DNA from: Candidatus Marinimicrobia bacterium CG08_land_8_20_14_0_20_45_22
GTDB lineage: Bacteria; Fidelibacterota; UBA2242
Assembly: GCA_002774355.1 (NCBI GenBank)
Contig: PEYN01000022.1
Span: forward strand, 1-42,821
Reading direction: 5' to 3'
DNA: 42,821 nucleotides
In this document: positions 131-40,743 of the stretch, piece by piece
How positions within the stretch are numbered: position 1 is the stretch's first letter
Layout of the letters: every line of letters begins with the position of its first letter
The notes under the pieces: model-generated
What the model saw: the letters and a program-made list of their open reading frames with translations, nothing else
What the model was told of the DNA's origin: nothing
Databases searched by the model: none
Position numbers and translations under genes: made by a program

Positions 131-2638
131 ATGCATAAAACGCATATATTATTACCGATGTCATTCTGCTCCTTCTCGACCCTGACCTTGGCCTTAGCCT
201 TAACCTTATTCTCCAATTGTTCCCATGAAAATAGCATTGAACAAAACAAACTATCCGTCAATTTCAAAGGTGATGCCGAGATCGAGGTCGGCGGGCCATT
301 CGTCGGGGCGGAATTCCATCACAGTTACATGATTCCCCAGCGCATCAGTTTTTTCTATCCGGTGGCGAACAGCATCGATCGCAGTCAGGATTACTGGAAG
401 CGCGACACCTCCTTTGTGGCGGAATGGTTTTTGAAAATCGGCGCTGGTCAGCCTGAAGCCATTGGTCGGAAACCGGTGGAATTCAATCTGACGCCCTACT
501 CGGTCGAGTTTTTCGATCGGAAATCTGCCCGGGATATTAATGTCGCTTATCATTTTTGCAGTGAAAAACCAGCGATGGTCGTCACCTACCGAATTGTCAA
601 TCGTCTGAATAAAAACGAAGTGTTCGAGTTTGATACCCGTCTGTTCACTTCAATCCGAACTTGCCATACTTTTCGGGTGGTCGATCGGGCTGAAGTTATT
701 GGCGATTCAGCGAGCGGGACGATCTTTACCAATTTTGCGGAGGCTGATGCGCGCATGGCTCAGGTTTTTATTACCAACGCCGGCGAGAAGCCGGTCGCGG
801 TTATCCTGGGCGAAAGCGGTTTGCCGTATGCGCGTTTCGTTTACCGGCGGGCAATGGTGCCCGGTGATACCCTGAACATTGTTCAGATTATCGGCTCGGC
901 GAAGCAAAAGGAAAGCCAGGCATTGGTCGGTTACCTTCTGGAAAATTTTCAGACTGAAATAGAGCAATATGAAAAATTTGTGAATGAACAGGCTTTCCAA
1001 AACAACGTCTTGAAAACCGGAGATACTCGTACAGATCATTCTATCGCCTGGGCTAGAGCCGAGATGGAAGCAAATGCACATTACTTAGACGGCGAAATTG
1101 TGCCGATGCCATGTCCGGCGGAATATAATTTCTATTTTACCCATGATGTGCAAGTCTCCGATCTGGCGGCGGTGAATTACGATTTGCCACGGGTCCGGCG
1201 CGATCTGGATTACATCATCCGCCACGCCGATAAGGACCTGGTAATTCCGCACGCCTATTACTGGAAAGACGGAAAATACGTGACGGAATTTGCCAGTTCC
1301 GACAACTGGAACAATTTCTGGTTCGTGCAGGTTACGGCTAAATATCTGCGTCATTCCGGCGAAACCGACTTTGTTGCAAAACTTTATCCTTATCTGTCGG
1401 TTTGCGTCGAACGGGCGCTGTTGACACAAGAAGCCGACAATCTGATGTGGTCATACCGGCCGGATTGGTGGGACATCGGGCATAATTACGGTTCACGTTC
1501 ATATATGACGATCCTGGCGATCAAAACCCTGCGTGATTACAATTTTATCTCGACCGTGTTAGGTAAAAACCCCGAAAAAGTTACTGAATATGTGATTTTA
1601 GCCGACAGTATGCAGACGGCGCTGGTTGATAAACTCTGGAGTGACGAACTGAACTATCTGATCAATTATAATGACGATGGTTCACAGGACCGGCATTATT
1701 ACATTGGTTCACTGCTGGCGGCGCATTACGGATTGCTTGACGCTGAAAAACAAAATCAACTGGTTCAAACGGCCAAAGCCAAGCTGGTTGATGAAAAAGT
1801 TGGTATCTACAATGCCTTCCCGATGGACTTTCACCTGTTGGGCGATTTTTACAAATTCGTCGGTAATGAAGTCGGGGCTGAATATTATTACGCCAATGGC
1901 GGCGTTTGGCCGCAGGGTAATGCCTGGTATGCGATGGCGCTAATGGCTAATGGCGAAAGACAGGCCGCGGCTGAATTCATCGTCCGGACAATGTCACTTC
2001 ATGGTATCATGAACGGCCCGAACGGGCAACCGGCATACTACGAAGTGCGGAATGCCAACAAGGAAAATCCGGCCGAGTATGGAACCGTTGATAAACCAAA
2101 TTTTCTGTGGGCTGGCGCCTGGTACCTGAACAGTCTCTATCAACTCTACGGAGTCACGGAGAATGACTGGAATATCAGCCTTGATCCGTATCTGACGACC
2201 GGACAGGAGAAATGTAGTTTTACACTTTTTGTAAATGGTTATCCGGTTTTGATAAATATCAAAGGTCGTGGAGAAAACTTACGCTCAATAGAATTTGACG
2301 GTCGGAAGGTCAACTCGGCGGTATTTCCGGCTGAAATGCCGGCTGTCAAAGTAGCCGAGTTTGTTCTCGGTCAACCTGAGGAGCCATATCTCAAGAGTAC
2401 AACTGCTATACTTAATTTTTGCCAATACAGTGATAATAACCTGATCATTAATCTCCGCGGGATTGTATCACAACCAAATAAAACCGTTGTTATCAGTCAT
2501 GGGCGACCCAAAAAGGTGTCACTAAACGGTCAGCCGTTAACTGAAGGTTTGAAAATTGAAAAAGGAAACGGCGGTTATTGCACTACGATTACATTCAACC
2601 TTAAATTTTCTGAGAATAAACTGAATGTACAATTTTAA
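131..2638 (+). CDS. Lipoprotein glycoside hydrolase/phosphorylase-like protein, (alpha/alpha)6 barrel
   Basis: An 835-residue exported protein. The N-terminus has a long hydrophobic stretch ending at Cys29 (LFSNC), so it is probably a lipoprotein, although Asn before the Cys is not a classical lipobox. Residues about 50-280 look like a beta-sandwich. Residues about 300-690 resemble the (alpha/alpha)6 toroid of GH63/GH94/MGH1-like glycosidases, with aromatic signatures such as RPDWWDIGHNYGSRSY and GGVWPQGNAWYAMAL. A small beta domain closes the protein. It is the first gene of the sugar operon and sits 13 nt before the binding-protein start. It most likely trims an oligosaccharide in the periplasm or at the cell surface before import. 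The exact family and substrate cannot be fixed by eye; a GH94-like or amylo-1,6-glucosidase-like role is also possible. Confidence 0.7.
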   Translation: MHKTHILLPMSFCSFSTLTLALALTLFSNCSHENSIEQNKLSVNFKGDAEIEVGGPFVGAEFHHSYMIPQRISFFYPVANSIDRSQDYWKRDTSFVAEWFLKIGAGQPEAIGRKPVEFNLTPYSVEFFDRKSARDINVAYHFCSEKPAMVVTYRIVNRLNKNEVFEFDTRLFTSIRTCHTFRVVDRAEVIGDSASGTIFTNFAEADARMAQVFITNAGEKPVAVILGESGLPYARFVYRRAMVPGDTLNIVQIIGSAKQKESQALVGYLLENFQTEIEQYEKFVNEQAFQNNVLKTGDTRTDHSIAWARAEMEANAHYLDGEIVPMPCPAEYNFYFTHDVQVSDLAAVNYDLPRVRRDLDYIIRHADKDLVIPHAYYWKDGKYVTEFASSDNWNNFWFVQVTAKYLRHSGETDFVAKLYPYLSVCVERALLTQEADNLMWSYRPDWWDIGHNYGSRSYMTILAIKTLRDYNFISTVLGKNPEKVTEYVILADSMQTALVDKLWSDELNYLINYNDDGSQDRHYYIGSLLAAHYGLLDAEKQNQLVQTAKAKLVDEKVGIYNAFPMDFHLLGDFYKFVGNEVGAEYYYANGGVWPQGNAWYAMALMANGERQAAAEFIVRTMSLHGIMNGPNGQPAYYEVRNANKENPAEYGTVDKPNFLWAGAWYLNSLYQLYGVTENDWNISLDPYLTTGQEKCSFTLFVNGYPVLINIKGRGENLRSIEFDGRKVNSAVFPAEMPAVKVAEFVLGQPEEPYLKSTTAILNFCQYSDNNLIINLRGIVSQPNKTVVISHGRPKKVSLNGQPLTEGLKIEKGNGGYCTTITFNLKFSENKLNVQF

Positions 2639-2651
2639 GACAGGAAATACG

Positions 2652-3968
2652 ATGCGAATCCAAGCAACGATCACTCTTTTTCTCCTTTTGGGGGTTGTTT
2701 GTATTTCCTGCGGAAAAAAACGGACGGCGCAAACTGTAGCCGCGCAGGGCGCCGTCCGATTGACTTACTGGTGTGCTTCCAATCAGAGCGAAATTGACCT
2801 GGCAACGGAGTTGGTGAGTAAATGGAATGCAAGTCATCCGAAAATCCAGGTGGCCTTGCAGCCAATTCCAGCCAGTCAATCGTCAGAGGAAGCCCTTTTA
2901 GCGGCAATCGCGGGCAAAACGACACCGGACATTTGTGCGAATATGTGGCCGGGTGCGATGGACGATTTTACTTCATCGGGCGGATTGGTGCGGCTCGACC
3001 AATTTCCGGATTTTATGGATTACCTGACAGAACGAATACCGACGGAATTGCTAGAATCGTTTCGGTCTCCGGATGGGCATTATTACCAGATTCCATGGAA
3101 AACTAATCCGATCATGATCATGTACAATAAGCGGATGTTCCGGAAAGCCGGTATTCTAAAACCGCCGCGCACCTACAGCGAATATTTGGCGGCGGCGAAG
3201 TCAATCACGAAAGATTTGAACGGAGATGGGCGGGCAGATCAATGGATGGGCTATCAGGACATCCGTCCGATTTGGTGGCAGAGATTTTTCGACTATTACA
3301 CCCATTACATCGCGGCCTCTGGCGGCCAGACACTTTTTGATAGTATGGGTATTTGCTTCGAGAACGACGCGTCGATCAAAGTTTTTAGTTTTTTCCAGGA
3401 AATCTACCGCAACGGCTATTTTCCCCGAACGACTTTCCAAGGTGACAATTTCCTGGCCGGAAAGTTCGCGACCGTTATTACCGGTCCGTGGAATATTACC
3501 CATGTGGAAAAATTCAAAAAGCCTGAGTTCGAATACGACATTTTTCCAATCCCGGTGCCGGACGATTACCACGGTCCGGTTTACACCTACGGCGATCACA
3601 AAAACATATCCATTTTCAGCACTACAAAAAATCCTGAAGCTGTTTGGAAATTCGCCAGGTTTTTAATCTCGGCGCAGGCCGATCTGAGGTTGCTGGAAGT
3701 CTGCAGTCAGATTCCTTTGCGGAAAAACCTAACGAAAAATCCGCTCTATCAGTCCTACTTCCGTGAAAATCCGATGATGACGAAATTCGCCGAACAGGCG
3801 CCATTTACGCGTGGAGTGGACGGTTCATCCGTTCTGAAAGAAATTTTCGATGCTATTTCGCAGGAGTACGAAGCCTGCTCAATCTATGGCAAACGCACGC
3901 CGGAAGAAGCCGTCGCCAACGCCGCCAAACGCGCCCGGGTTATCATTGAGTGGAGCCGTCCGCAATGA
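2652..3968 (+). CDS. ABC transporter sugar-binding lipoprotein (SBP family 1)
   Basis: A 438-residue extracellular solute-binding protein of the MalE/UgpB type. I prefer the ATG at 2652 over the upstream in-frame ATG at 2625, because it begins a clean lipoprotein signal (MRIQATITLFLLLG, lipobox cysteine in CISCGKK) and avoids overlap with the preceding gene. The mature part starts with the family's first beta strand (VRLTYWCA). It carries an acidic DLNGDGRAD loop typical of calcium-binding sites in these proteins, and a Trp/Tyr-rich stretch (WWQRFFDYY) fit for stacking on sugars. Its TGA overlaps the ATG of the first permease. It delivers the substrate to the two permeases downstream; the context suggests a beta-manno-oligosaccharide. 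Confidence 0.9.
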   Translation: MRIQATITLFLLLGVVCISCGKKRTAQTVAAQGAVRLTYWCASNQSEIDLATELVSKWNASHPKIQVALQPIPASQSSEEALLAAIAGKTTPDICANMWPGAMDDFTSSGGLVRLDQFPDFMDYLTERIPTELLESFRSPDGHYYQIPWKTNPIMIMYNKRMFRKAGILKPPRTYSEYLAAAKSITKDLNGDGRADQWMGYQDIRPIWWQRFFDYYTHYIAASGGQTLFDSMGICFENDASIKVFSFFQEIYRNGYFPRTTFQGDNFLAGKFATVITGPWNITHVEKFKKPEFEYDIFPIPVPDDYHGPVYTYGDHKNISIFSTTKNPEAVWKFARFLISAQADLRLLEVCSQIPLRKNLTKNPLYQSYFRENPMMTKFAEQAPFTRGVDGSSVLKEIFDAISQEYEACSIYGKRTPEEAVANAAKRARVIIEWSRPQ

Positions 3969-4843
3969 AATCAGCCCAATTGAAAACAAAAAGCAGCGAC
4001 AAGACCGGTTATCTTATGAGCCTGCCGTATGTCATTTATTTCGGCTTGTTCATCGGCTTTCCGCTGGTCTTTTCCTTCATTTTGATTTTTCATAAATGGA
4101 ATATTGTTACGCCGATGCAATGGATCGGTCTACGGAATTTTTACCGGCTTTTTCACGATGTGCAATTTTTTATCGCGATCCGTAATACGCTCGTTTTCCT
4201 GGTGATTCATATTCCGTTGCAAATCTTCACGGCGCTTTTACTGGCGATTTTATTGAATCAGAAGATCAAATTGAAAGGTTTTTTCCGGGCGCTCTACTTT
4301 TTACCGGTAATTGTGTCGGGTGTTGTCATTACGATTCTCTGGCAACAACTTTTCGCCTACGAAACCGGGCTTCTGAACCTGCTGTTGACAAAACTCGGTT
4401 TGTCGAAAATTCCGTGGCTGATCAATATAAAATGGGCAATGCCGTCGATCGCGATCATGGCAACCTGGAAAAATGTCGGACTTTATATTGTACTTTTCTT
4501 AGTCGGTTTGCAGGGCATTCCGCGCTATTTGTACGAAGCCGCCGAAATTGATGGCGCGCGACCGGTTCAACAGTTTTTCCATATTACCATACCGGCATTA
4601 AATAGTACGATGGTGCTAGTAGTAATTCTTTCGACAATCGGCGGATTTTCATTATTCATCGAACCATTCGTAATGACCGGCGGCGGGCCGATGAACAGCA
4701 CGCTGTCCGTGATGCTTTATATTTACAATCAGGCGTTCTATTTCGGACACATGGGTTATGCGGCGACACTCGGATTTTTCTTCGCTTTTATCATCCTGAT
4801 TGTCGTTTTGATCCAGAAAAAATTCGTTGAGAGAAAAGACTGA
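3965..4843 (+). CDS. Sugar ABC transporter permease (MalF/UgpA type)
   Basis: A 292-residue inner-membrane permease with about six transmembrane helices. The cytoplasmic EAA loop reads EAAEIDGARPVQQFFHITIP and would dock on the ATPase encoded at 8794-9882. The ATG at 3965 overlaps the TGA of the binding-protein gene (ATGA) and has a GGAG ribosome site about 9 nt upstream, so I prefer it to the longer frame from 3950. It forms a heterodimer with the next gene's product. Confidence 0.92.
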   Translation: MKSAQLKTKSSDKTGYLMSLPYVIYFGLFIGFPLVFSFILIFHKWNIVTPMQWIGLRNFYRLFHDVQFFIAIRNTLVFLVIHIPLQIFTALLLAILLNQKIKLKGFFRALYFLPVIVSGVVITILWQQLFAYETGLLNLLLTKLGLSKIPWLINIKWAMPSIAIMATWKNVGLYIVLFLVGLQGIPRYLYEAAEIDGARPVQQFFHITIPALNSTMVLVVILSTIGGFSLFIEPFVMTGGGPMNSTLSVMLYIYNQAFYFGHMGYAATLGFFFAFIILIVVLIQKKFVERKD

Positions 4844-5652
4844 TGAAGAAAAGCTTAATCTACATTTTACTGATTGTGGGCGGCCTGATGTTCGCTTATC
4901 CGTTTTTATGGATGATTTCGGCGACGTTCAAGCCGGAAGCCGAGATCGGCTCGATCGGGCTCTGGTCGGCTAATTTTTCCATGCGCAATTACACCGCCGT
5001 TTTCCAGAAAATTCCGATCAGCCGGGCATTTCTGAATAGTATTTTTGTCTCGGCGTGTGTCACATTTTCGGTGATCCTTTTTGGTTCGATCGTGGGCTAT
5101 GCTTTGTCGCGTCTGCGTTTTTTCGGCCGCGATTTTCTGCTCGGATTAATTCTCTTTACAATGGTAATTCCGTTCCAGATCACTCTGATACCCATGTACA
5201 TTTTAATGGTCAAATTCGGCTGGGTTGACAGTTATATGGCCCTGATCGTGCCGGGTATGATCAGCGCCTTCGGAATTCTGCTTTTCAGACAATTTTTTAT
5301 GGATATTCCCCAGGATCTGATTGACGCCGCCAAAATTGATGGCTGTAATGATTTCGGAATACTTTTCAAGATTATATATCCGCTCTCCAAACCGGTCATT
5401 ATAACGGTTGGGATTGTATCATTTATGGGTAGCTGGAATGACGTTCTCTGGCCGTTGATTGTCATTCGCCTGCAGAAGCTGATGACTCTGCCGCAAATGG
5501 TGACGATCTTCGCGGTCGGCGGTCAGGCGGACGGACAACTGGGAGCCCAGCTTGCCGCGGCGACGCTTCTGGCAGTGCCGATCGTGTTGGTTTACACTTT
5601 CTTCCAGCGTTATTTCATCGAAAGTATGGCAACGACGGGTTTGAAGAATTGA
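4843..5652 (+). CDS. Sugar ABC transporter permease (MalG/UgpE type)
   Basis: A 269-residue permease, the second half of the transport channel. It starts with MKKSLIYILLIVGG, a first transmembrane helix, and has an EAA loop (DAAKIDGCNDFGILFKIIYP) near residue 165. It ends in the usual short C-terminal tail of the MalG class. The ATG shares a base with the preceding TGA (TGATG), so the two permeases are translationally coupled. Confidence 0.92.
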   Translation: MKKSLIYILLIVGGLMFAYPFLWMISATFKPEAEIGSIGLWSANFSMRNYTAVFQKIPISRAFLNSIFVSACVTFSVILFGSIVGYALSRLRFFGRDFLLGLILFTMVIPFQITLIPMYILMVKFGWVDSYMALIVPGMISAFGILLFRQFFMDIPQDLIDAAKIDGCNDFGILFKIIYPLSKPVIITVGIVSFMGSWNDVLWPLIVIRLQKLMTLPQMVTIFAVGGQADGQLGAQLAAATLLAVPIVLVYTFFQRYFIESMATTGLKN

Positions 5653-6644
5653 TGATTAAATACGATGTTATATGTCTTGGTGAAGCGCTGGTTGACCTGA
5701 TATCCCAGGAACCCGGCAAGAATCTGGCCGATGTCAATCTTTTTAAAAAATTCGCCGGTGGCGATCCGGCTAATGTCGCTGTCGGATTAGCCCGACTGGG
5801 CTGTAAGACCGGTTTCGCTGGAAAGATTGGCCGGGATGCCTTTGGCCGTTTCCTGCAGAAATTCTTAATTGACAATGGCGTCAATACCGAAGCGTTGTAT
5901 ACAGATTCGGTACACAAGACGCGACTGGCGTTCGTCGAAGTAGCCAATGACGGCGAGCGTAATTTTGAATTCAGTGAGAAACATCCGGCCGATTCGGCGC
6001 TGAAGGATGAAGATTTTTCCATGGAATTTTTAAAACAAGCCAGCATCGTCCACTTTGGCTCTTTACCCTTGCCGGCGCCTTCTAATGGAGAATTATTCAG
6101 CCAATTAATAACCAGACTCAATCACGATAATATTCTAACATCGTTCGATCCGAATTATCGGACGGCGTTGTGGAAAACATCCCAACATGCCAGGAGGGTT
6201 TTAGGATCAATTGCTTCGCTATGCCGGATTCTAAAAGTGAATTTGGAAGAGGCCCGATTGCTGGGCGGAACGGAACGTATCGAAGAACTATTATCTAACA
6301 TATTTTTCCCCAATACTTTACTTTTAGCCATTACTCTTGGTGAAGACGGTTGTATTTTGAAAAACCGGCGCTGTGTGGTAAAAATTCACAGCTTCAGAGT
6401 AAAAGTGGTTGATACGACTGGTTGCGGGGATGCCTTTACTGCCGGCTTACTGGCGGGATTGATTAGATCTGGAGAAAATATAGACGAGTTGGATGAACTT
6501 GATTTAAATGCTATCGGTCAACGAGCTTATGCCATGGCCGCGTTGACTGCAACCCGCTTTGGCGCGGCCGAAGCGTTACCAATAAACCAAGAAATTGAAA
6601 TATTTATTAAATCACATATTCACAAAAGAGGTATAAAGAAATGA
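5652..6644 (+). CDS. PfkB-family carbohydrate kinase (fructokinase-like)
   Basis: A 330-residue ribokinase-fold sugar kinase. The N-terminal signature is present (GEALVDLI; FKKFAGGDPANVAVGLARLG). The C-terminal PfkB signature at about residues 254-260 reads DTTGCGD, with the catalytic Asp kept and the usual GAGD alanine replaced by Cys, which occurs in some members. The start is the ATG at 5652, overlapping the permease stop (TGATG). It probably phosphorylates the free hexose (for example fructose or mannose) produced in the pathway. Which sugar cannot be read from sequence alone. Confidence 0.9.
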   Translation: MIKYDVICLGEALVDLISQEPGKNLADVNLFKKFAGGDPANVAVGLARLGCKTGFAGKIGRDAFGRFLQKFLIDNGVNTEALYTDSVHKTRLAFVEVANDGERNFEFSEKHPADSALKDEDFSMEFLKQASIVHFGSLPLPAPSNGELFSQLITRLNHDNILTSFDPNYRTALWKTSQHARRVLGSIASLCRILKVNLEEARLLGGTERIEELLSNIFFPNTLLLAITLGEDGCILKNRRCVVKIHSFRVKVVDTTGCGDAFTAGLLAGLIRSGENIDELDELDLNAIGQRAYAMAALTATRFGAAEALPINQEIEIFIKSHIHKRGIKK

Positions 6645-7552
6645 TCAAATTAATTCGTGTCTCACAGGAACCGATTTTAAGACCTATCCCGGAACATAGC
6701 TGGGAGCGCGCCGCGGTCTTCAACGCCGGCGCGGTCTATGACAAAGGATTGTACCACATGATCTATCGGGCGACCGATATAGGAGGACACGAGAATTACG
6801 GTAATTATATTAATTGCTTCGGTTATGCCGTCAGTAAGGATTTATTGCAGTGGCATCGTCTCGCGGAACCGATCATGAAAAATAATGTGCCGCAGGAATT
6901 GCGCGGGCCGGAAGATCCGCGCGTTGTTAAAATCGGCGACACGTTTTATATGACTTATGTCGGATTTGCCAATCGCTTTCCGGGTGACTACCGGATTTGT
7001 CTGGCGACGAGTTACGATCTGGTAAACTGGGAACGCCATGGGATCTTACTCGATGAAGAAAATAAAAACTCGTCACTTTTTCCGGAAAAGATTAAAGGTG
7101 AATTCCTGCTCCTGCATCGTCGTCATCCCGACATCTGGATAGCTTCTTCCCCGGATCTGAAAACTTTTACCGATCATACTCGCATAATGACAACAATAGA
7201 CGATGACTGGCAATCAACTCGCATCGGTATCGCCGGTCCGCCGGTCAGGCATCCGCAAGGCTGGCTCTTGTTCTATCATGCCGTTGATAAAATCAATGCT
7301 TATAGGCTCGGGGTCGCTCTGCTGGATTACGATAATCCGCGCCGCGTTCTGGCCCGTCAATCCCGCCCGGTGATCGAACCGGAAATGCCCTGGGAGATCA
7401 ATGGTTTTGTACCCAACGTCATTTTCAGTTGTGCCACGGTTGAAAACGATGACAAATACGTTGTGATTTATGCCGGAGCCGATACGGTTATCGGGGCCGC
7501 CTATGTCAAAAAAAGCGACGTTGTTTTCGATAAAAAGGACTGGCTGGTTTAG
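6641..7552 (+). CDS. GH130 family glycoside phosphorylase (beta-mannoside phosphorylase)
   Basis: A 303-residue five-bladed propeller enzyme with no signal peptide, hence cytoplasmic. GH130 hallmarks are visible: LRGPEDPRVVKIGDTFYM around residues 87-104 with the presumed general-acid Asp92, LLHRRHPDIW around 150-159 with basic residues fit for phosphate, and GPPVRHPQGWLLFYHAVD. The known family phosphorolyses beta-mannosidic bonds to alpha-mannose-1-phosphate plus a shorter sugar. The gene overlaps the kinase stop (ATGA) and has an AGAGG ribosome site. Its place beside a sugar ABC importer and a hexose kinase fits import followed by phosphorolysis. Whether the bond is beta-1,4 or beta-1,2, and the acceptor sugar, are not determined. 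Confidence 0.9.
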   Translation: MIKLIRVSQEPILRPIPEHSWERAAVFNAGAVYDKGLYHMIYRATDIGGHENYGNYINCFGYAVSKDLLQWHRLAEPIMKNNVPQELRGPEDPRVVKIGDTFYMTYVGFANRFPGDYRICLATSYDLVNWERHGILLDEENKNSSLFPEKIKGEFLLLHRRHPDIWIASSPDLKTFTDHTRIMTTIDDDWQSTRIGIAGPPVRHPQGWLLFYHAVDKINAYRLGVALLDYDNPRRVLARQSRPVIEPEMPWEINGFVPNVIFSCATVENDDKYVVIYAGADTVIGAAYVKKSDVVFDKKDWLV

Positions 7553-8776
7553 ATGAGAAATCTCGGATTTTCAGTTATAATTTTCAGTCTACTGGTGGTA
7601 GCCTGTAATAAATCCGAGAGGAAATCACCGATCAATTTGAGTCACGCTCTCAGTTTGATCGATTCCGTCGCAGTCAACGGCGAACAACTCTACTATATTG
7701 CGATTTATGCCGACTATCCGGAGTATAAACCGGTTGCTGCCAAAGGTGAAGGAATTGCCTGCGTGGATGACGCCGGGCGCTTTCTGGAGGTGTTGGAAAG
7801 TGAAATCTTATTATCCGGGAATCGGACTTTGCTACCAACCGCCAAAGGTTTGACGAAATTCCTGCTGTATATGTGTCGCGATGATGGCCGCTGGTATAAT
7901 TTTCTTGAATCTGACGGCCAAATCAATACTGAGCATGTCAATAGTCAGGCCGATTTCGGCTGGTGGGCTGTACGCGGAATTCGCGGTCTGACGGCGGCTT
8001 ACTTGATTTTAAAACAATTCCCGGAAGAGGCGGAATTGCTGAATCAGGTGGAAAAGTGTCTAAGGACTACTTTGAGGCAAATGGATGCTGATTTGGCGCA
8101 GTATCCGCTAAAAGTTGCGGGCAATTTCGGCTCGGTACCGGCCTGGCTGATAAAATCGGCACCCGATATGAACAGCGAACTTTTGATGGCACTCTGTAAA
8201 CTCCAACTTACCGGCGATTTTAACTTTAAAGTGGAAATCCGAAAAATTGCGGAAGGGTTGGTCGGATTTCAATTTCGGCGCGATGGCCATCCGTTAAACG
8301 GCATGTATTTCTGTTGGCAAAATTCCTGGCATGACTGGGGCGCCAAACAGCCTTTGGCATTGGTAGAGGCATTTAAAATCACCGGCGATTCAACCTTCTA
8401 TAAAAGTGTAGAAATCTGGGCCGATAATTTCGTGCCATTCCTGATCGCGAATGACCTACCGCGCGAGATCACTCTAAATCAAGACGGAAGTTACCGGCTG
8501 GTAGCTTTGCCCCAGATTGCATATGGCATCAATGCCCTTTACAGCGGCATTCAAGCCTTTGCCGATCTGAGCGGCAAAAATCGCTATCATCAATTTGCCG
8601 CGCGAATTTTCAACTGGTTTGGCGGTGGTAATCTAGCCCGAGCGCAGATGTATTGGCCGGAGACTGGAGTCACGTCTGACGGTATAGACGAAGATAAAAA
8701 AGTCAATCGCAACTCCGGGGCGGAGTCAACCATAGAAGGCTTATTGGCACAACAGAGAAAATTTTATCGCAATTAA
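7553..8776 (+). CDS. Lipoprotein with six-hairpin glycosidase-like fold
   Basis: A 407-residue protein starting immediately after the GH130 stop. The signal (MRNLGFSVIIFSLLVVAC) has a good lipobox, LVVAC. The mature part is alpha-helical, with repeated Trp/Gly-rich helix ends (DGRWYNFLESDGQINTEHVN, then SQADFGWWAVRGIRGLTAAY, and WQNSWHDWGAKQPLALVEA). This pattern belongs to six-hairpin (alpha/alpha toroid) glycosidase-like domains. I do not recognise a specific family. By position it is likely a second surface or periplasmic enzyme that processes the imported glycan. Confidence 0.65.
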   Translation: MRNLGFSVIIFSLLVVACNKSERKSPINLSHALSLIDSVAVNGEQLYYIAIYADYPEYKPVAAKGEGIACVDDAGRFLEVLESEILLSGNRTLLPTAKGLTKFLLYMCRDDGRWYNFLESDGQINTEHVNSQADFGWWAVRGIRGLTAAYLILKQFPEEAELLNQVEKCLRTTLRQMDADLAQYPLKVAGNFGSVPAWLIKSAPDMNSELLMALCKLQLTGDFNFKVEIRKIAEGLVGFQFRRDGHPLNGMYFCWQNSWHDWGAKQPLALVEAFKITGDSTFYKSVEIWADNFVPFLIANDLPREITLNQDGSYRLVALPQIAYGINALYSGIQAFADLSGKNRYHQFAARIFNWFGGGNLARAQMYWPETGVTSDGIDEDKKVNRNSGAESTIEGLLAQQRKFYRN

Positions 8777-8793
8777 TCCTATAAAGGAAAATG

Positions 8794-9882
8794 ATGGCAC
8801 AGATTACATTGAATCATATAACCAAAGAATTCGATAAAGGGGTAAAAATCATTGATGACCTGAATCTGAACATAAATGATGGTGAATTTTTAGTTCTGGT
8901 AGGTCCATCAGGTTGCGGTAAATCAACTACTCTGCGCATGATCGCCGGGCTGGAAAGTGTCACTGCCGGTGATATTTTCATCGGAGATAGACGAGTCAAT
9001 GACGTTCCACCCAAAGATCGCGATATTGCCATGGTTTTCCAGAATTATGCGCTCTATCCGCATATGACGGTATACGAGAATCTGTCTTTTGGCCTCAAGT
9101 TGCGGAAAATGCCGAAAGCCGAGATTAAGCAACGTGTCATTGAAACCGCCGCTATTTTGGAAATTGAGGAGTTGCTGAACCGCAAACCGCGTCAACTTTC
9201 AGGAGGTCAGCGCCAGCGCGTAGCCCTCGGCCGGGCGATTGTGCGCAAGCCGAAAGTGTTCCTTTTTGATGAACCGCTTTCGAATCTGGATGCTAAACTG
9301 CGCTTGCAGATGCGGACCGAAATAAAAAGATTACATCAGCGATTGAAAACGACTATGGTGTACGTTACCCATGATCAGGTGGAAGCCATGACCATGGGTG
9401 ATCGGATCGTAGTCATGAAATCCGGCCTGATCCATCAAATTGATACCCCGGTTAACCTATACAACTCACCGGTTGATATGTTCGTGGCCGGATTTATCGG
9501 TTCGCCGCCCATGAATTTTATTTCCGTTACACTCCGGCAGGAAGATTTTCTTATTGCCGATGAAGGCAATGTCCGCCTAAAAATACCGGCCGAACACACC
9601 GAAAAGCTTAGAGCATATATTGGTAAAAACTTGGTGATAGGAATTCGTCCGGAAAATATCCTGATGCAACCGTCAGATTCGAACCACGTAAAGATTCGTG
9701 TTAAACTCGATATTTGTGAACCAATGGGCAACGAAACCTATCTTTATCTGACAACCGGTAAGACCAATCTAGTAGCCCGCAGTAATACTGTACCTTCTGA
9801 AAAACCTGGGTCGGATATTACAGTATTTCTCAATCTGCAAGATGACCATTATTTTAATCCACAGACCGAGAAAGTAATCTGA
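8794..9882 (+). CDS. Sugar ABC transporter ATP-binding protein (MalK/UgpC/MsmX type)
   Basis: A 362-residue ATPase. It has Walker A GPSGCGKST (37-45), a Q-loop in FQNYALYPHMTVYEN, signature LSGGQRQRVALGRA (from 135), Walker B VFLFDEP (about 155-161), a D-loop SNLDAKL, and H-loop His193 in YVTHDQ. A C-terminal OB/TOBE region follows, as in MalK-type subunits. Two ATGs stand in tandem at 8791 and 8794. The second is better spaced from the AAAGGA at 8784-8789. It energises the importer encoded at 2652-5652 and is the last gene of the operon. Confidence 0.94.
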   Translation: MAQITLNHITKEFDKGVKIIDDLNLNINDGEFLVLVGPSGCGKSTTLRMIAGLESVTAGDIFIGDRRVNDVPPKDRDIAMVFQNYALYPHMTVYENLSFGLKLRKMPKAEIKQRVIETAAILEIEELLNRKPRQLSGGQRQRVALGRAIVRKPKVFLFDEPLSNLDAKLRLQMRTEIKRLHQRLKTTMVYVTHDQVEAMTMGDRIVVMKSGLIHQIDTPVNLYNSPVDMFVAGFIGSPPMNFISVTLRQEDFLIADEGNVRLKIPAEHTEKLRAYIGKNLVIGIRPENILMQPSDSNHVKIRVKLDICEPMGNETYLYLTTGKTNLVARSNTVPSEKPGSDITVFLNLQDDHYFNPQTEKVI

Positions 9883-37931: not shown

Positions 37932-39371
37932 TCAGTCCTGAATAAATATGTAGGCACGGGTCAATTCCCTGTCGCCGCGAGTTACGACAATTGGATACTT
38001 TTTGCCGTTGCCATCTATGGAATACTTATTCCAATTTAGCCGGCGGATATCGATCAAACTATTGCGGTCTTCTCCATCGTTAACAGCATTTCGCGGTACA
38101 TAACCTTTTAAATTGACTTTCAGTTCAGAACTTGTTTCTCCCGGAATAGAAACGTCTATAATTTTGATTTTATCACTGCGCCGTACGCTCAGCGTCTGGT
38201 CGCTGACAATTCGCTTTTGAGAGCCGTTGACTTCGATCAGATAAGTGATATTATCAATTGGTTTTCCAATAGCTTCTACATGTACGTTACCAATTACCTG
38301 ATTATCCCGCCGGACAATGATGGATGTTGGTTTCTGAATCAAAATCGGCTTTTGAAAATCTTGCTCCGAGCCGGCGCCGATTACGTCGCAAGTGATACCG
38401 CGGTTATAATTGGACTCGATATGAGTTATTTGTAGGACGTCACCAACATTGACTTGTATAGAGCCTTTGTTTTCGACGAGTTTGGTTTCGGCGTTATGGA
38501 TTGAAACCAGCATGTAAATCAACTTCGGCGGTTCAAATAAAACGGCCGGTTGCTCTGGCTCTACGCCAATAAGTTTAAAAAATTCATTGATGGCGTAATT
38601 GTGATAGCGAATTTTCAGATCGACACTTTTCAGGCTCTTAGACGATTCAATGCCGAAAGCCGGGATGTGAAGATTTGTCACGGCGTAATAGGTTGCCGAC
38701 TTTCTTTGTTCCGGAAACTTGGTGTCTTTTGCCAGCGTATTGGTATTCATAAAGTGGAAAGCGTGCTCCGGAATCTCGACCCGTTCATTGATACGCTCGA
38801 TGACTTTTCTGGCCATTTCCTCGAGCTTTAGAGTATCATTTCCGAAAATCAGTTGACTGGCGTCTGCGATGATCGATTGGCCGTAACGACGTGGATTGCG
38901 GTTTTCATCAATGTAGGTGTCGCTGTAGAAGCCACTGCCATCGTGCAGATTCAGAAAAAGATCACATTCGGACATTAATTCCTTGACGATTTCCACGATA
39001 TGATCTTCAACGTCTTGGGGCGTATCTCGATCAAAGCGCCTGTTCATATCTCCATTGACGCCCCGGTTATTCAAAATGATAGAGCGAAAATTAGCGCGCG
39101 GGATAATGATCAGATTCCCCCGGTCAAGTACAAGGTCTGGATAAAGATCGGCTGATAAATAACCACCCGGTTCGTCGCCCTGAATCCCGCCCAAAATGAA
39201 GATAGTCTTGCCATCGAAACGCCCATATAATTTATAGACACACAGTTCGTTGGATGTGTTTTCAAAATAGACTTTATATTCGCGCGACGGACGTTTGACT
39301 TCAGCCGATATGTTTCCAATAGCCAAGCAGAGAATTACTCCCAGAATAAGAAATATTTTTGTGTGTTTAAT
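37932..39371 (-). CDS. Csd4/Pgp1-like M14 peptidoglycan DL-carboxypeptidase
   Basis: A protein of 479 residues if it starts at the ATT at 39371. The M14-type zinc site has the Csd4 form: GGIQGDEPGG gives Gln64 and Glu67 where other carboxypeptidases have His and Glu, and NLHDGSGFY gives His143. Glu242 in FGIESSK fits the catalytic Glu. GDMNRRF matches the family arginine region. Two beta domains follow, as in Csd4. In Helicobacter, Csd4 cuts peptidoglycan tripeptides to dipeptides. The ATG/GTG/TTG rule would start at a TTG at 39326 and cut the signal peptide in half. Starting at ATT restores KHTKIFLILGVILCLAIG-NISA, with GGAG 8 nt upstream. The gene overlaps the LDT-type gene by one to three bases. 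Confidence 0.85.
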   Translation of the reverse strand: MKHTKIFLILGVILCLAIGNISAEVKRPSREYKVYFENTSNELCVYKLYGRFDGKTIFILGGIQGDEPGGYLSADLYPDLVLDRGNLIIIPRANFRSIILNNRGVNGDMNRRFDRDTPQDVEDHIVEIVKELMSECDLFLNLHDGSGFYSDTYIDENRNPRRYGQSIIADASQLIFGNDTLKLEEMARKVIERINERVEIPEHAFHFMNTNTLAKDTKFPEQRKSATYYAVTNLHIPAFGIESSKSLKSVDLKIRYHNYAINEFFKLIGVEPEQPAVLFEPPKLIYMLVSIHNAETKLVENKGSIQVNVGDVLQITHIESNYNRGITCDVIGAGSEQDFQKPILIQKPTSIIVRRDNQVIGNVHVEAIGKPIDNITYLIEVNGSQKRIVSDQTLSVRRSDKIKIIDVSIPGETSSELKVNLKGYVPRNAVNDGEDRNSLIDIRRLNWNKYSIDGNGKKYPIVVTRGDRELTRAYIFIQD

Positions 39372-40629
39372 TGTCTTTTCTCCATTCTTCTTTAATGATT
39401 TTTAAATCGCCGGGAAAGCCCTTGATCGTCATCGTTTTCACTCCGGCATCGCGATAATTGTCAGCCTGATAAATCTGAAGGAAAGAAACATTCCAAACCT
39501 GTTTTTCGGTTGATTGAACCTTCAAAGCGCTTCGTTCAACGCTGACTTTTTTACCAGATTGAAACAATTCTGACTTATATTTTCGCCAACCGCCCAGATC
39601 ATATTCACCGGTAGAAAAATTCGGATCGTAAAATGCCAAATAGGCTTCAATGCCCTGTTTTTCCCATGCATTTTCCCAGCTCTTTAGAAATTGCTCAATC
39701 ATTTCCTCGGTCGAAATCCGCGCTGAAGACGGTTTAAAGTTTTCCTGCATGATCTTCCATTGGGATTTGAACGGTATTAAAATTAGCTGCTTCTGGCCTT
39801 CACTGTAAAAGGTCAGGCTTAGATAGCGCTGGCGGAATTTCAAGTGGGTTTCCTTGTCGGAAATTAGAACATAAACCTTGTCAATTATGACCGGTTTCCA
39901 TTTGTAAGTTTTTTCAAGTCCGGACTTGTATTCCTTGAACTTCGCCAAATTGCGTCCACTTCCATCAATGTATTTGGGATCATAGTATGAACAATAAGCA
40001 GATATATCTCCGCTGTCCCAGCTTTGTGCCCAGCCGTTGGTAAATTCTGACCAATGGTTGGTTGCAGATACATAATCTGTTTGATCGACAGAATATGCGG
40101 ATAAATTGTCCAGAATTATGACGGGTGTTTGATCGATATCGATATATTTTTTGAGGCCGAGAATTTGGCTGTTTTCCATCGAAATACAGCCTTCGGTGAT
40201 AAAATCCTTGAAGGCTTCGTCGCGACCGTGAATCCAGATGTTCGATCCGTTTCTCTTTTGGAGACGATCGACGAAGTTTGGATAATCAATGATAAAAGCG
40301 ATCGGACCAAACTTTGCGGTCAGTTTATTGTCCGGAACCCGCCCGTTAATATAATAAATTCCTTCGGGCGTTCTTAAATCGCCGCGGTGTTCCTTATCCC
40401 CGCTCCGACGGCCGGTTGTGATTTTGTATTCTTTCACAATTTTTATAGTGCCAGGTGCATCGCTATTGATGATGAAAATCTTTTGGTGAGTTTTGTCCGC
40501 TACCAAAACATAACCAGTCGAATCGGCGGAAATGTTGATCACGTTAGAAATCAGATTCTCGGCAAAAGTAGTGAGCGGTAAAAAAAGCAATGTTATTGCA
40601 ATAAATATTTGTCGAGGTATCATCAGCAT
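39367..40629 (-). CDS. Csd6/Pgp2-like YkuD-domain peptidoglycan peptidase with two NTF2-like domains
   Basis: A 420-residue exported protein. I chose the ATG at 40629 (AGGA 8 nt upstream), which begins a good signal peptide (MLMIPRQIFIAITLLFLPL...FAEN); ATG 40662 adds 11 residues. The YkuD (L,D-transpeptidase fold) domain is residues about 35-180, with RTPEGIYYI, catalytic His134 (WIHG) and Cys148 (TEGCISM). Two NTF2-like domains follow (about 190-300 and 307-420), each with the pattern W...AY...YDP...G.....YKS. Helicobacter Csd6 has the same YkuD plus NTF2 design, with one NTF2 domain, and acts as an L,D-carboxypeptidase. It is coupled to the Csd4-like gene. Confidence 0.82.
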   Translation of the reverse strand: MLMIPRQIFIAITLLFLPLTTFAENLISNVINISADSTGYVLVADKTHQKIFIINSDAPGTIKIVKEYKITTGRRSGDKEHRGDLRTPEGIYYINGRVPDNKLTAKFGPIAFIIDYPNFVDRLQKRNGSNIWIHGRDEAFKDFITEGCISMENSQILGLKKYIDIDQTPVIILDNLSAYSVDQTDYVSATNHWSEFTNGWAQSWDSGDISAYCSYYDPKYIDGSGRNLAKFKEYKSGLEKTYKWKPVIIDKVYVLISDKETHLKFRQRYLSLTFYSEGQKQLILIPFKSQWKIMQENFKPSSARISTEEMIEQFLKSWENAWEKQGIEAYLAFYDPNFSTGEYDLGGWRKYKSELFQSGKKVSVERSALKVQSTEKQVWNVSFLQIYQADNYRDAGVKTMTIKGFPGDLKIIKEEWRKDN

Positions 40630-40743
40630 CCAGAATTTCCTATTTATCTCATATTTATTCATCTTTAGAACATGCCAAAGTTAGGAAGCAAAAAGGTTTT
40701 TTGAAATAGATTATCACGGTCTGGCATCAAATTCTGGCAGATT

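Follow-up and report, generated by a model that had tools for sequence, protein, structure and literature searches.

An overlapping gene pair in Fidelibacterota encoding a Bd1075-like YkuD-NTF2 protein and a Peptidase_M99 protein, with a predicted role in two-step peptidoglycan trimming

Introduction

What would two overlapping genes for exported proteins of the peptidoglycan-trimming families do in a bacterium of the phylum Fidelibacterota (Marinimicrobia)? Such a pair lies in the window analysed here, the whole stretch of 42,821 nucleotides from Candidatus Marinimicrobia bacterium CG08_land_8_20_14_0_20_45_22. Bd1075 is the LD-carboxypeptidase that curves Bdellovibrio. In the Pgp1/Pgp2 system of Campylobacter jejuni, whose counterparts in Helicobacter pylori are Csd4 and Csd6, Pgp2 supplies the tripeptide to Pgp1, and helical shape needs both (PMC3961634). 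An earlier note on this DNA had read the two genes as a Csd6/Csd4-like pair outside Campylobacterota that trims peptidoglycan in two steps, perhaps for curved cells.

The gene pair and its start codons

As that note had described, two coupled exported genes are found here: they form overlapping open reading frames on the minus strand, the YkuD gene first and the M14 gene after it, and both proteins begin with a signal-peptide-like sequence (Table 1). In the YkuD frame, 40662 is the first ATG; 40629, the start chosen in the earlier note, is an ATG further inside and just as plausible, and 40623 is another possible start. A search of the M14 frame upstream of the signal peptide for ATG, GTG or TTG found none, and the ATT at 39369-39371, which has one base in common with the YkuD TAA and a GGAG eight bases upstream, is the sole start that retains the signal sequence. 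This ATT, unusual as it is, is the apparent start codon of the M14 gene. The ATT and the GGAG recur in a sister species (L009/L029), whose M14 protein is 78% identical, so a sequencing error at this position is unlikely; in the rest of the order, M14 start codons are mostly usual ones, with a similar overlap. Across the order both genes are retained, at 49-78% identity for the M14 protein and 36-77% for the YkuD protein, and the pair is therefore far beyond chance. Translational coupling of the two genes in one operon is part of the explanation set out below, which we judge likely as a whole.

The gene order purA-secF-secD-M14-YkuD-glycosyltransferase is common to the window and UBA2242 (L126). 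At the other end of the window (131-9882) lies a sugar-uptake cluster comprising a solute-binding protein, two permeases, a PfkB kinase, a GH130 phosphorylase and a MalK-type ATPase.

Table 1. Features of the gene pair in the window
Feature	Coordinates	Strand	Remarks
YkuD-type LD-carboxypeptidase gene (predicted)	39367..40662	-	431 aa from first ATG; signal peptide, YkuD domain, two NTF2-like domains
YkuD catalytic domain	40114..40512	-	Pfam PF03734, residues 51-183
YkuD catalytic domain residues			His145, Gly146, Cys159; D-Ala pocket Phe118/Trp143; Lys90
NTF2-like domain 1 (Cds6_C)	39739..40038	-	Profile match
NTF2-like domain 2 (Cds6_C)	39382..39699	-	Model match 39385-39699; terminal Glu425-x-Trp427
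Gene overlap	39367..39371	-	YkuD TAA stop 39367-39369, apparent M14 ATT start 39369-39371
M99 (Csd4/Pgp1-like) DL-carboxypeptidase gene (predicted)	37932..39371	-	479 aa including signal peptide
M99 catalytic domain	38559..39212	-	Gln64, Glu67, His143 (metal); Arg103, Arg111, Glu242 (catalysis)
C-terminal beta domains, corresponding to Csd4 domains 2 and 3	37935..38558	-	Csd4 profile match 55-476; AlphaFold model

The M14 protein belongs to the Csd4 family

Against Pfam, the M14 protein matches Peptidase_M99 (PF17033) with E=1.1e-38 and 133.7 bits, the cut-off being 27; a search of NCBIfam with the same protein gave zero matches. The motifs GGIQGDEPGG, NLHDGSG and GIESSK are each present in the reading frame, and Gln64, Glu67, His143 and Glu242 align with Csd4 Gln46, Glu49, His128 and Glu222, which bears out the Gln/Glu/His zinc site and the GIESSK glutamate recognised earlier. 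The roles of the metal and active-site residues of Csd4, including Arg86, Arg94 and Glu222, have been described (PMC4220969). Gln64, Glu67, His143, Arg103, Arg111 and Glu242 are invariant in our alignment (28/28), a count to be read with the caveat that Gln64 and Glu67 sit inside one of the two search patterns that collected the loci; in an HMM-based set, the Gln of the metal site is kept in 18 of 19 sequences.

The sole strong solved relatives of the protein are Csd4 entries (1e-29 with the single sequence, 4.2e-66 with a profile), and the profile match covers the full three-domain Csd4 (residues 55-476 against Csd4 37-436). With an AlphaFold model (pLDDT 88.6), the top five Foldseek matches are all Csd4 (4e-29), desuccinylases following at 1.5e-11. 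Identity to Csd4 is low (21% in the structural alignment). The global TM is only 0.50-0.57, which may reflect a different arrangement of the domains or an error in its prediction. Assignment to the succinylglutamate desuccinylases/aspartoacylases (AstE/AspA), the placement that the earlier note had named as speaking against its reading, was rejected: the score of 24.2 bits is below the cut-off of 25 and compares with 133.7 for M99.

In a quick maximum-likelihood tree of M99 proteins, Csd4 and a copy from another Fidelibacterota genome, G025 (L002), fall on one side and all others on the opposite side (SH-aLRT 99), although the exact placement of Csd4 is unsure because its row is a fragment on a long branch. 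This split indicates two versions in Fidelibacterota, the window type and a Campylobacterota-like type. Fidelibacterota M99 proteins can form one group, at a support of only 44, with a Nitrospirota/Deferribacterota clade and a Desulfobacterota-type clade next to them. Judged by this tree, the window M14 protein is a member of an M99 subfamily separate from Csd4/Pgp1 proper. The Csd4-like label thus holds at the level of the Peptidase_M99 family and not within it, the truly Csd4-like pair of this phylum being that of G025.

The G025 locus (L128 4056-6346) carries a Campylobacterota-like Csd6-Csd4 pair. In its M14 protein, the metal-site Gln is replaced by His (GGVHGDEPGG), and its Csd6-like copy carries an N-terminal extension.

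Bd1075 is the nearest solved relative of the YkuD protein

The YkuD protein matches YkuD at 4.6e-15 and Cds6_C at 8.8e-33, the latter in two tandem copies, in agreement with the YkuD-type architecture with NTF2-like domains that had been read from the sequence. Among solved structures, Bd1075 of Bdellovibrio bacteriovorus (PDB 7o21) comes first in sequence (3.8e-36), in profile (5.6e-74) and in fold (a TM of 0.90 on the target with an rmsd of 2.3-2.6 A, for a window model of pLDDT 89.8), followed by Csd6 and Pgp2. Structure prediction, which had been proposed as a check, therefore sets Csd4 at the top for the M14 model and Bd1075, Csd6 and Pgp2 at the top for the YkuD model.

His145, Gly146 and Cys159 correspond to the Csd6 triad H160, G161 and C176, and the LD-carboxypeptidase type of pocket is likewise present: Lys90, Trp143, an aromatic residue at 118 (Phe in the window) and the catalytic His and Cys are found in 24/24 sequences, the Csd6 counterparts of the first three being Lys107, Trp158 and Tyr133. 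The residues that make Csd6 a carboxypeptidase have been established (PMC4599014, PMC10653827). At the Cys+2 position, where most transpeptidases have Arg (PMC8938487), all 24 sequences have Ser, Ala, Thr or Val, and never Arg. Two residues that Csd6 needs for mDAP recognition are exchanged in the window, Glu110 for Arg93 and His155 for Ser140. Per alignment, both exchanges (Arg and Ser) are also found in Bd1075, which is active, so Glu110 and His155 mark Csd6/Pgp2 and not the wider type that includes Bd1075.

The N-terminal dimerisation domain of Csd6 and Pgp2 is absent, as it is from Bd1075, the YkuD domain starting at residue 51, soon after the signal peptide. Trp427, at the end of the second NTF2-like domain, aligns with the pocket residue Trp303 in which the NTF2 domain of Bd1075 ends; Csd6 and Pgp2 lack this terminal Trp. 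Trp303 has been described as present in Bdellovibrio homologues of Bd1075 and absent from other LD-carboxypeptidases (PMC8938487), whereas an equivalent of Trp427 occurs here in 23/24 sequences, from Fidelibacterota, Nitrospirota, Deferribacterota, Desulfobacterota-type and gammaproteobacterial loci. Unlike the window protein with its two NTF2-like domains, Bd1075 has one, as do Csd6 and Pgp2. It further differs in having Val at Cys+2 (Ser in the window) and Ala after the catalytic His (Gly in the window). On the window side, the gene overlaps an M99 gene. The Csd6-like label therefore stands for the NTF2 type and the carboxypeptidase pocket, which also set the protein apart from ordinary L,D-transpeptidases; it needs amending in that the protein is closer to Bd1075, lacks the dimerisation domain and has two NTF2-like domains.

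The DpaA/YafK amidases were rejected as an assignment, at 33.4 bits against an NCBIfam equivalog cut-off of 365; DpaA has Met instead of the D-Ala-pocket Trp (PMC10653827), and Trp143 is invariant here (24/24).

NTF2-like domains seem to differ in copy number and arrangement among related loci (L045 1088-2944, L065, L084, L087 and L100), with apparently three or more in L045, which is from the order of the window. YkuD-NTF2 paralogues apparently without catalytic residues occur at L119 (2567-3748, minus strand), L123 (871-2058) and L124 (369-1640), the last with QN where the catalytic HG is expected; the L119 paralogue, in genome G018, adjoins flagellin genes.

Occurrence and linkage

In 100 Fidelibacterota genomes, with a strong match defined as E below 1e-30, M99 was found in 24 and Cds6_C in 21: the co-occurrence survey proposed earlier gave 21 genomes with both families, 3 with M99 only, 0 with NTF2 only and 76 with neither (Fisher p 1e-18, for genomes that are related and not independent). 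Two of the M99-only cases (G013 and G062) are contig ends, and in the third (G033, L122) the YkuD gene ends abruptly in the first NTF2 domain through deletion or misassembly. Neither M99 nor Cds6_C was found by the genome scan in G002 and G011, which belong to the family of the window.

A scan of GTDB genomes yielded 360 related places, of which the best 80 were considered, in Nitrospirota, Deferribacterota, Desulfobacterota-type lineages, Methylomirabilota and Balneatrix; the best named relatives among these 80 are MAGs of Candidatus Neomarinimicrobiota (Fidelibacterota). In 16/16 assessable Fidelibacterota loci and in 50/57 loci of other phyla, the YkuD and M14 genes are neighbours. Within the Nitrospirota/Deferribacterota clade, the pair is adjacent in 10/11 loci, with overlapping open frames as in Fidelibacterota. 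The two genes are linked in 40/46 loci of the Desulfobacterota-type clade, usually with a gene for a single-pass membrane protein of about 180-310 aa between them. This coiled-coil protein, exemplified by L048 1993-2850, L059 2179-2865 and L082 2200-2937, among others, matched no Pfam family above cut-off.

The existence of such pairs outside Campylobacterota, as the earlier note proposed, is thus real and widespread, and it is already known, as occurrence since 2012 and as neighbouring genes since 2014. Pgp1 was reported from epsilon- and delta-proteobacteria and a few extremophiles (PMC3310789; also PMC3310797), and the adjacency of pgp1 and pgp2 was noted through STRING in Desulfococcus, Persephonella, Nautilia and Nitratiruptor, the same gene pairing as here (PMC3961634); in C. 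jejuni itself, a long distance separates the two genes (locus tags 1344 and 0915). In the parts of PMC3961634 available to us, Fidelibacterota, overlap or coupling, tandem NTF2 domains and bactofilin linkage do not appear. The additions made here are modest: the occurrence in Fidelibacterota, the double NTF2 domain, an M99 subfamily distinct from Csd4/Pgp1 proper and the finding that the "Bd1075-unique" Trp is widespread.

Bactofilin context

Among Desulfobacterota-type loci, a bactofilin gene lies within 3 kb of the pair in 31/47 assessable cases, sometimes together with an M23 peptidase gene. In a genus of the window's family (g4; L120 and L121), the pair is divergent from a parA-parB-M23-bactofilin set, and the window genome has this set on a different contig (G000:C91, L125). 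The sets span 3079-5874 in L120 and 990-3827 in L121, the two loci from G004/G010, and 1442-4277 in L125. The presence of bactofilin was rejected as a discriminating mark inside Fidelibacterota, where it is near universal (97/100). A bactofilin-Csd4 operon linkage is not described in the titles and abstracts of the full-text literature matches, and the eLife paper on bactofilin and M23 mentions neither carboxypeptidases nor Csd4; on this weak evidence, the linkage of bactofilin with the pair may be undescribed so far.

A wider proposal, offered tentatively and as a single whole, is that the pair could be the core of an ancient shape operon common to several phyla. It would comprise a Bd1075-type LD-carboxypeptidase with NTF2 targeting domains and an M99 DL-carboxypeptidase, in many lineages with a single-pass membrane protein and bactofilin and sometimes with M23; a bactofilin track in the cytoplasm would thereby be linked with two trimming enzymes in the periplasm, and the scattered csd genes of Helicobacter might be its broken-up remains.

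Proposed function and alternatives

We consider it likely that the pair carries out a coupled, two-step periplasmic trimming of the cell's own wall that bends the cell, with activity, reaction order, targeting and curvature all inferred. The YkuD protein would remove D-Ala from tetrapeptide stems (tetra to tri), Cys159 acting as the nucleophile with His145 and Gly146 as the rest of the triad, and its two NTF2 domains may anchor it at, or guide it towards, certain places in the wall. Next, the M99 protein would take meso-DAP off the free tripeptides (tri to di), with the metal on Gln64, Glu67 and His143 and with Glu242 as the general base. The local loss of cross-linkable stems would make part of the wall grow differently, and the cell would bend. 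With neither desuccinylases nor ordinary transpeptidases proving to be the place of the two proteins, two-step trimming, as suggested earlier, is well supported by homology, and residues, fold and linkage make it very probable that the pair acts in this way. That trimming serves curvature, as the families, the shape of Desulfocarbo and the bactofilin link suggest, seems to us only somewhat better than an even prospect. Desulfocarbo indianensis (L093), an isolate carrying this subfamily, is vibrio-shaped (PMC4559730).

Pair-bearing genomes have Mur ligases and MreB; the window genome has MreB and five Mur-ligase matches, two of them adjacent, and a search of it for S11 DD-carboxypeptidases found none, in line with the proposed trimming. 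Fidelibacter, a cultured member of the same phylum but of a different class, is an irregular rod, which may count against curvature. With no flagellin found in the window genome (97% complete) or in that of its genus mate, curvature would have no evident advantage for swimming. Other families of the window's order have flagellin, which is missing in the genus of the window.

Trimming might instead serve turnover, recycling or wall maturation, setting stem length and cross-linking without S11 DD-carboxypeptidases, which were searched for in 23 genomes of the window's group and not found. The missing flagellin, which removes the usual gain of curvature for swimming, fits this alternative as well, but the vibrio-shaped Desulfocarbo among the carriers of the subfamily, the bactofilin linkage in other phyla and the parAB-M23-bactofilin linkage in the same family argue for shape, and we regard turnover as possible though rather unlikely. 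Action on imported exogenous muropeptides would recall Fidelibacter multiformis, which lives on them (PMC11652737), and would suit two proteins that are both predicted to be exported. The five Mur-ligase matches of the window genome speak against it, and such scavenging is further disfavoured because G086 and G093, at least 94% complete and with only two Mur-ligase matches, carry neither M99 nor Cds6_C; we hold it to be improbable.

Other activities for the proteins themselves receive still less credit. One such reading makes the YkuD protein a genuine L,D-transpeptidase or DpaA-like amidase and places the M14 protein among relatives of the succinylglutamate desuccinylases/aspartoacylases. It would accord with the weak DpaA/YafK and AstE/AspA scores given above, yet it is highly improbable in view of the pocket Trp that DpaA lacks, the Ser, Ala, Thr or Val at Cys+2 in place of the transpeptidase Arg, and a fold search that ranks Csd4 ahead of desuccinylases by 17-18 orders of magnitude. 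An action of the YkuD protein mainly on flagellin glycosylation would follow a second activity proposed for Csd6 (PMC4599014) and recalls the G018 paralogue beside flagellin genes; that paralogue is apparently catalytically dead, and the pair is kept in the window genome and its genus mate, both without flagellin, which makes this account scarcely credible.

Significance

Coupled trimming of the cell's own wall thus being the preferred reading, the locus bears on a form of curvature, through peptide trimming, that has so far been studied in a few Campylobacterota and Bdellovibrio. The pocket Trp of the NTF2 domain (W303) is not peculiar to Bdellovibrio, since nearly all relatives sampled across several phyla have it. 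The presence of a coupled pair in a phylum that is largely uncultured, together with bactofilin linkage elsewhere, directs attention to cultivable species such as the vibrio-shaped Desulfocarbo, where trimming could be tested jointly with targeting and the cytoskeleton.
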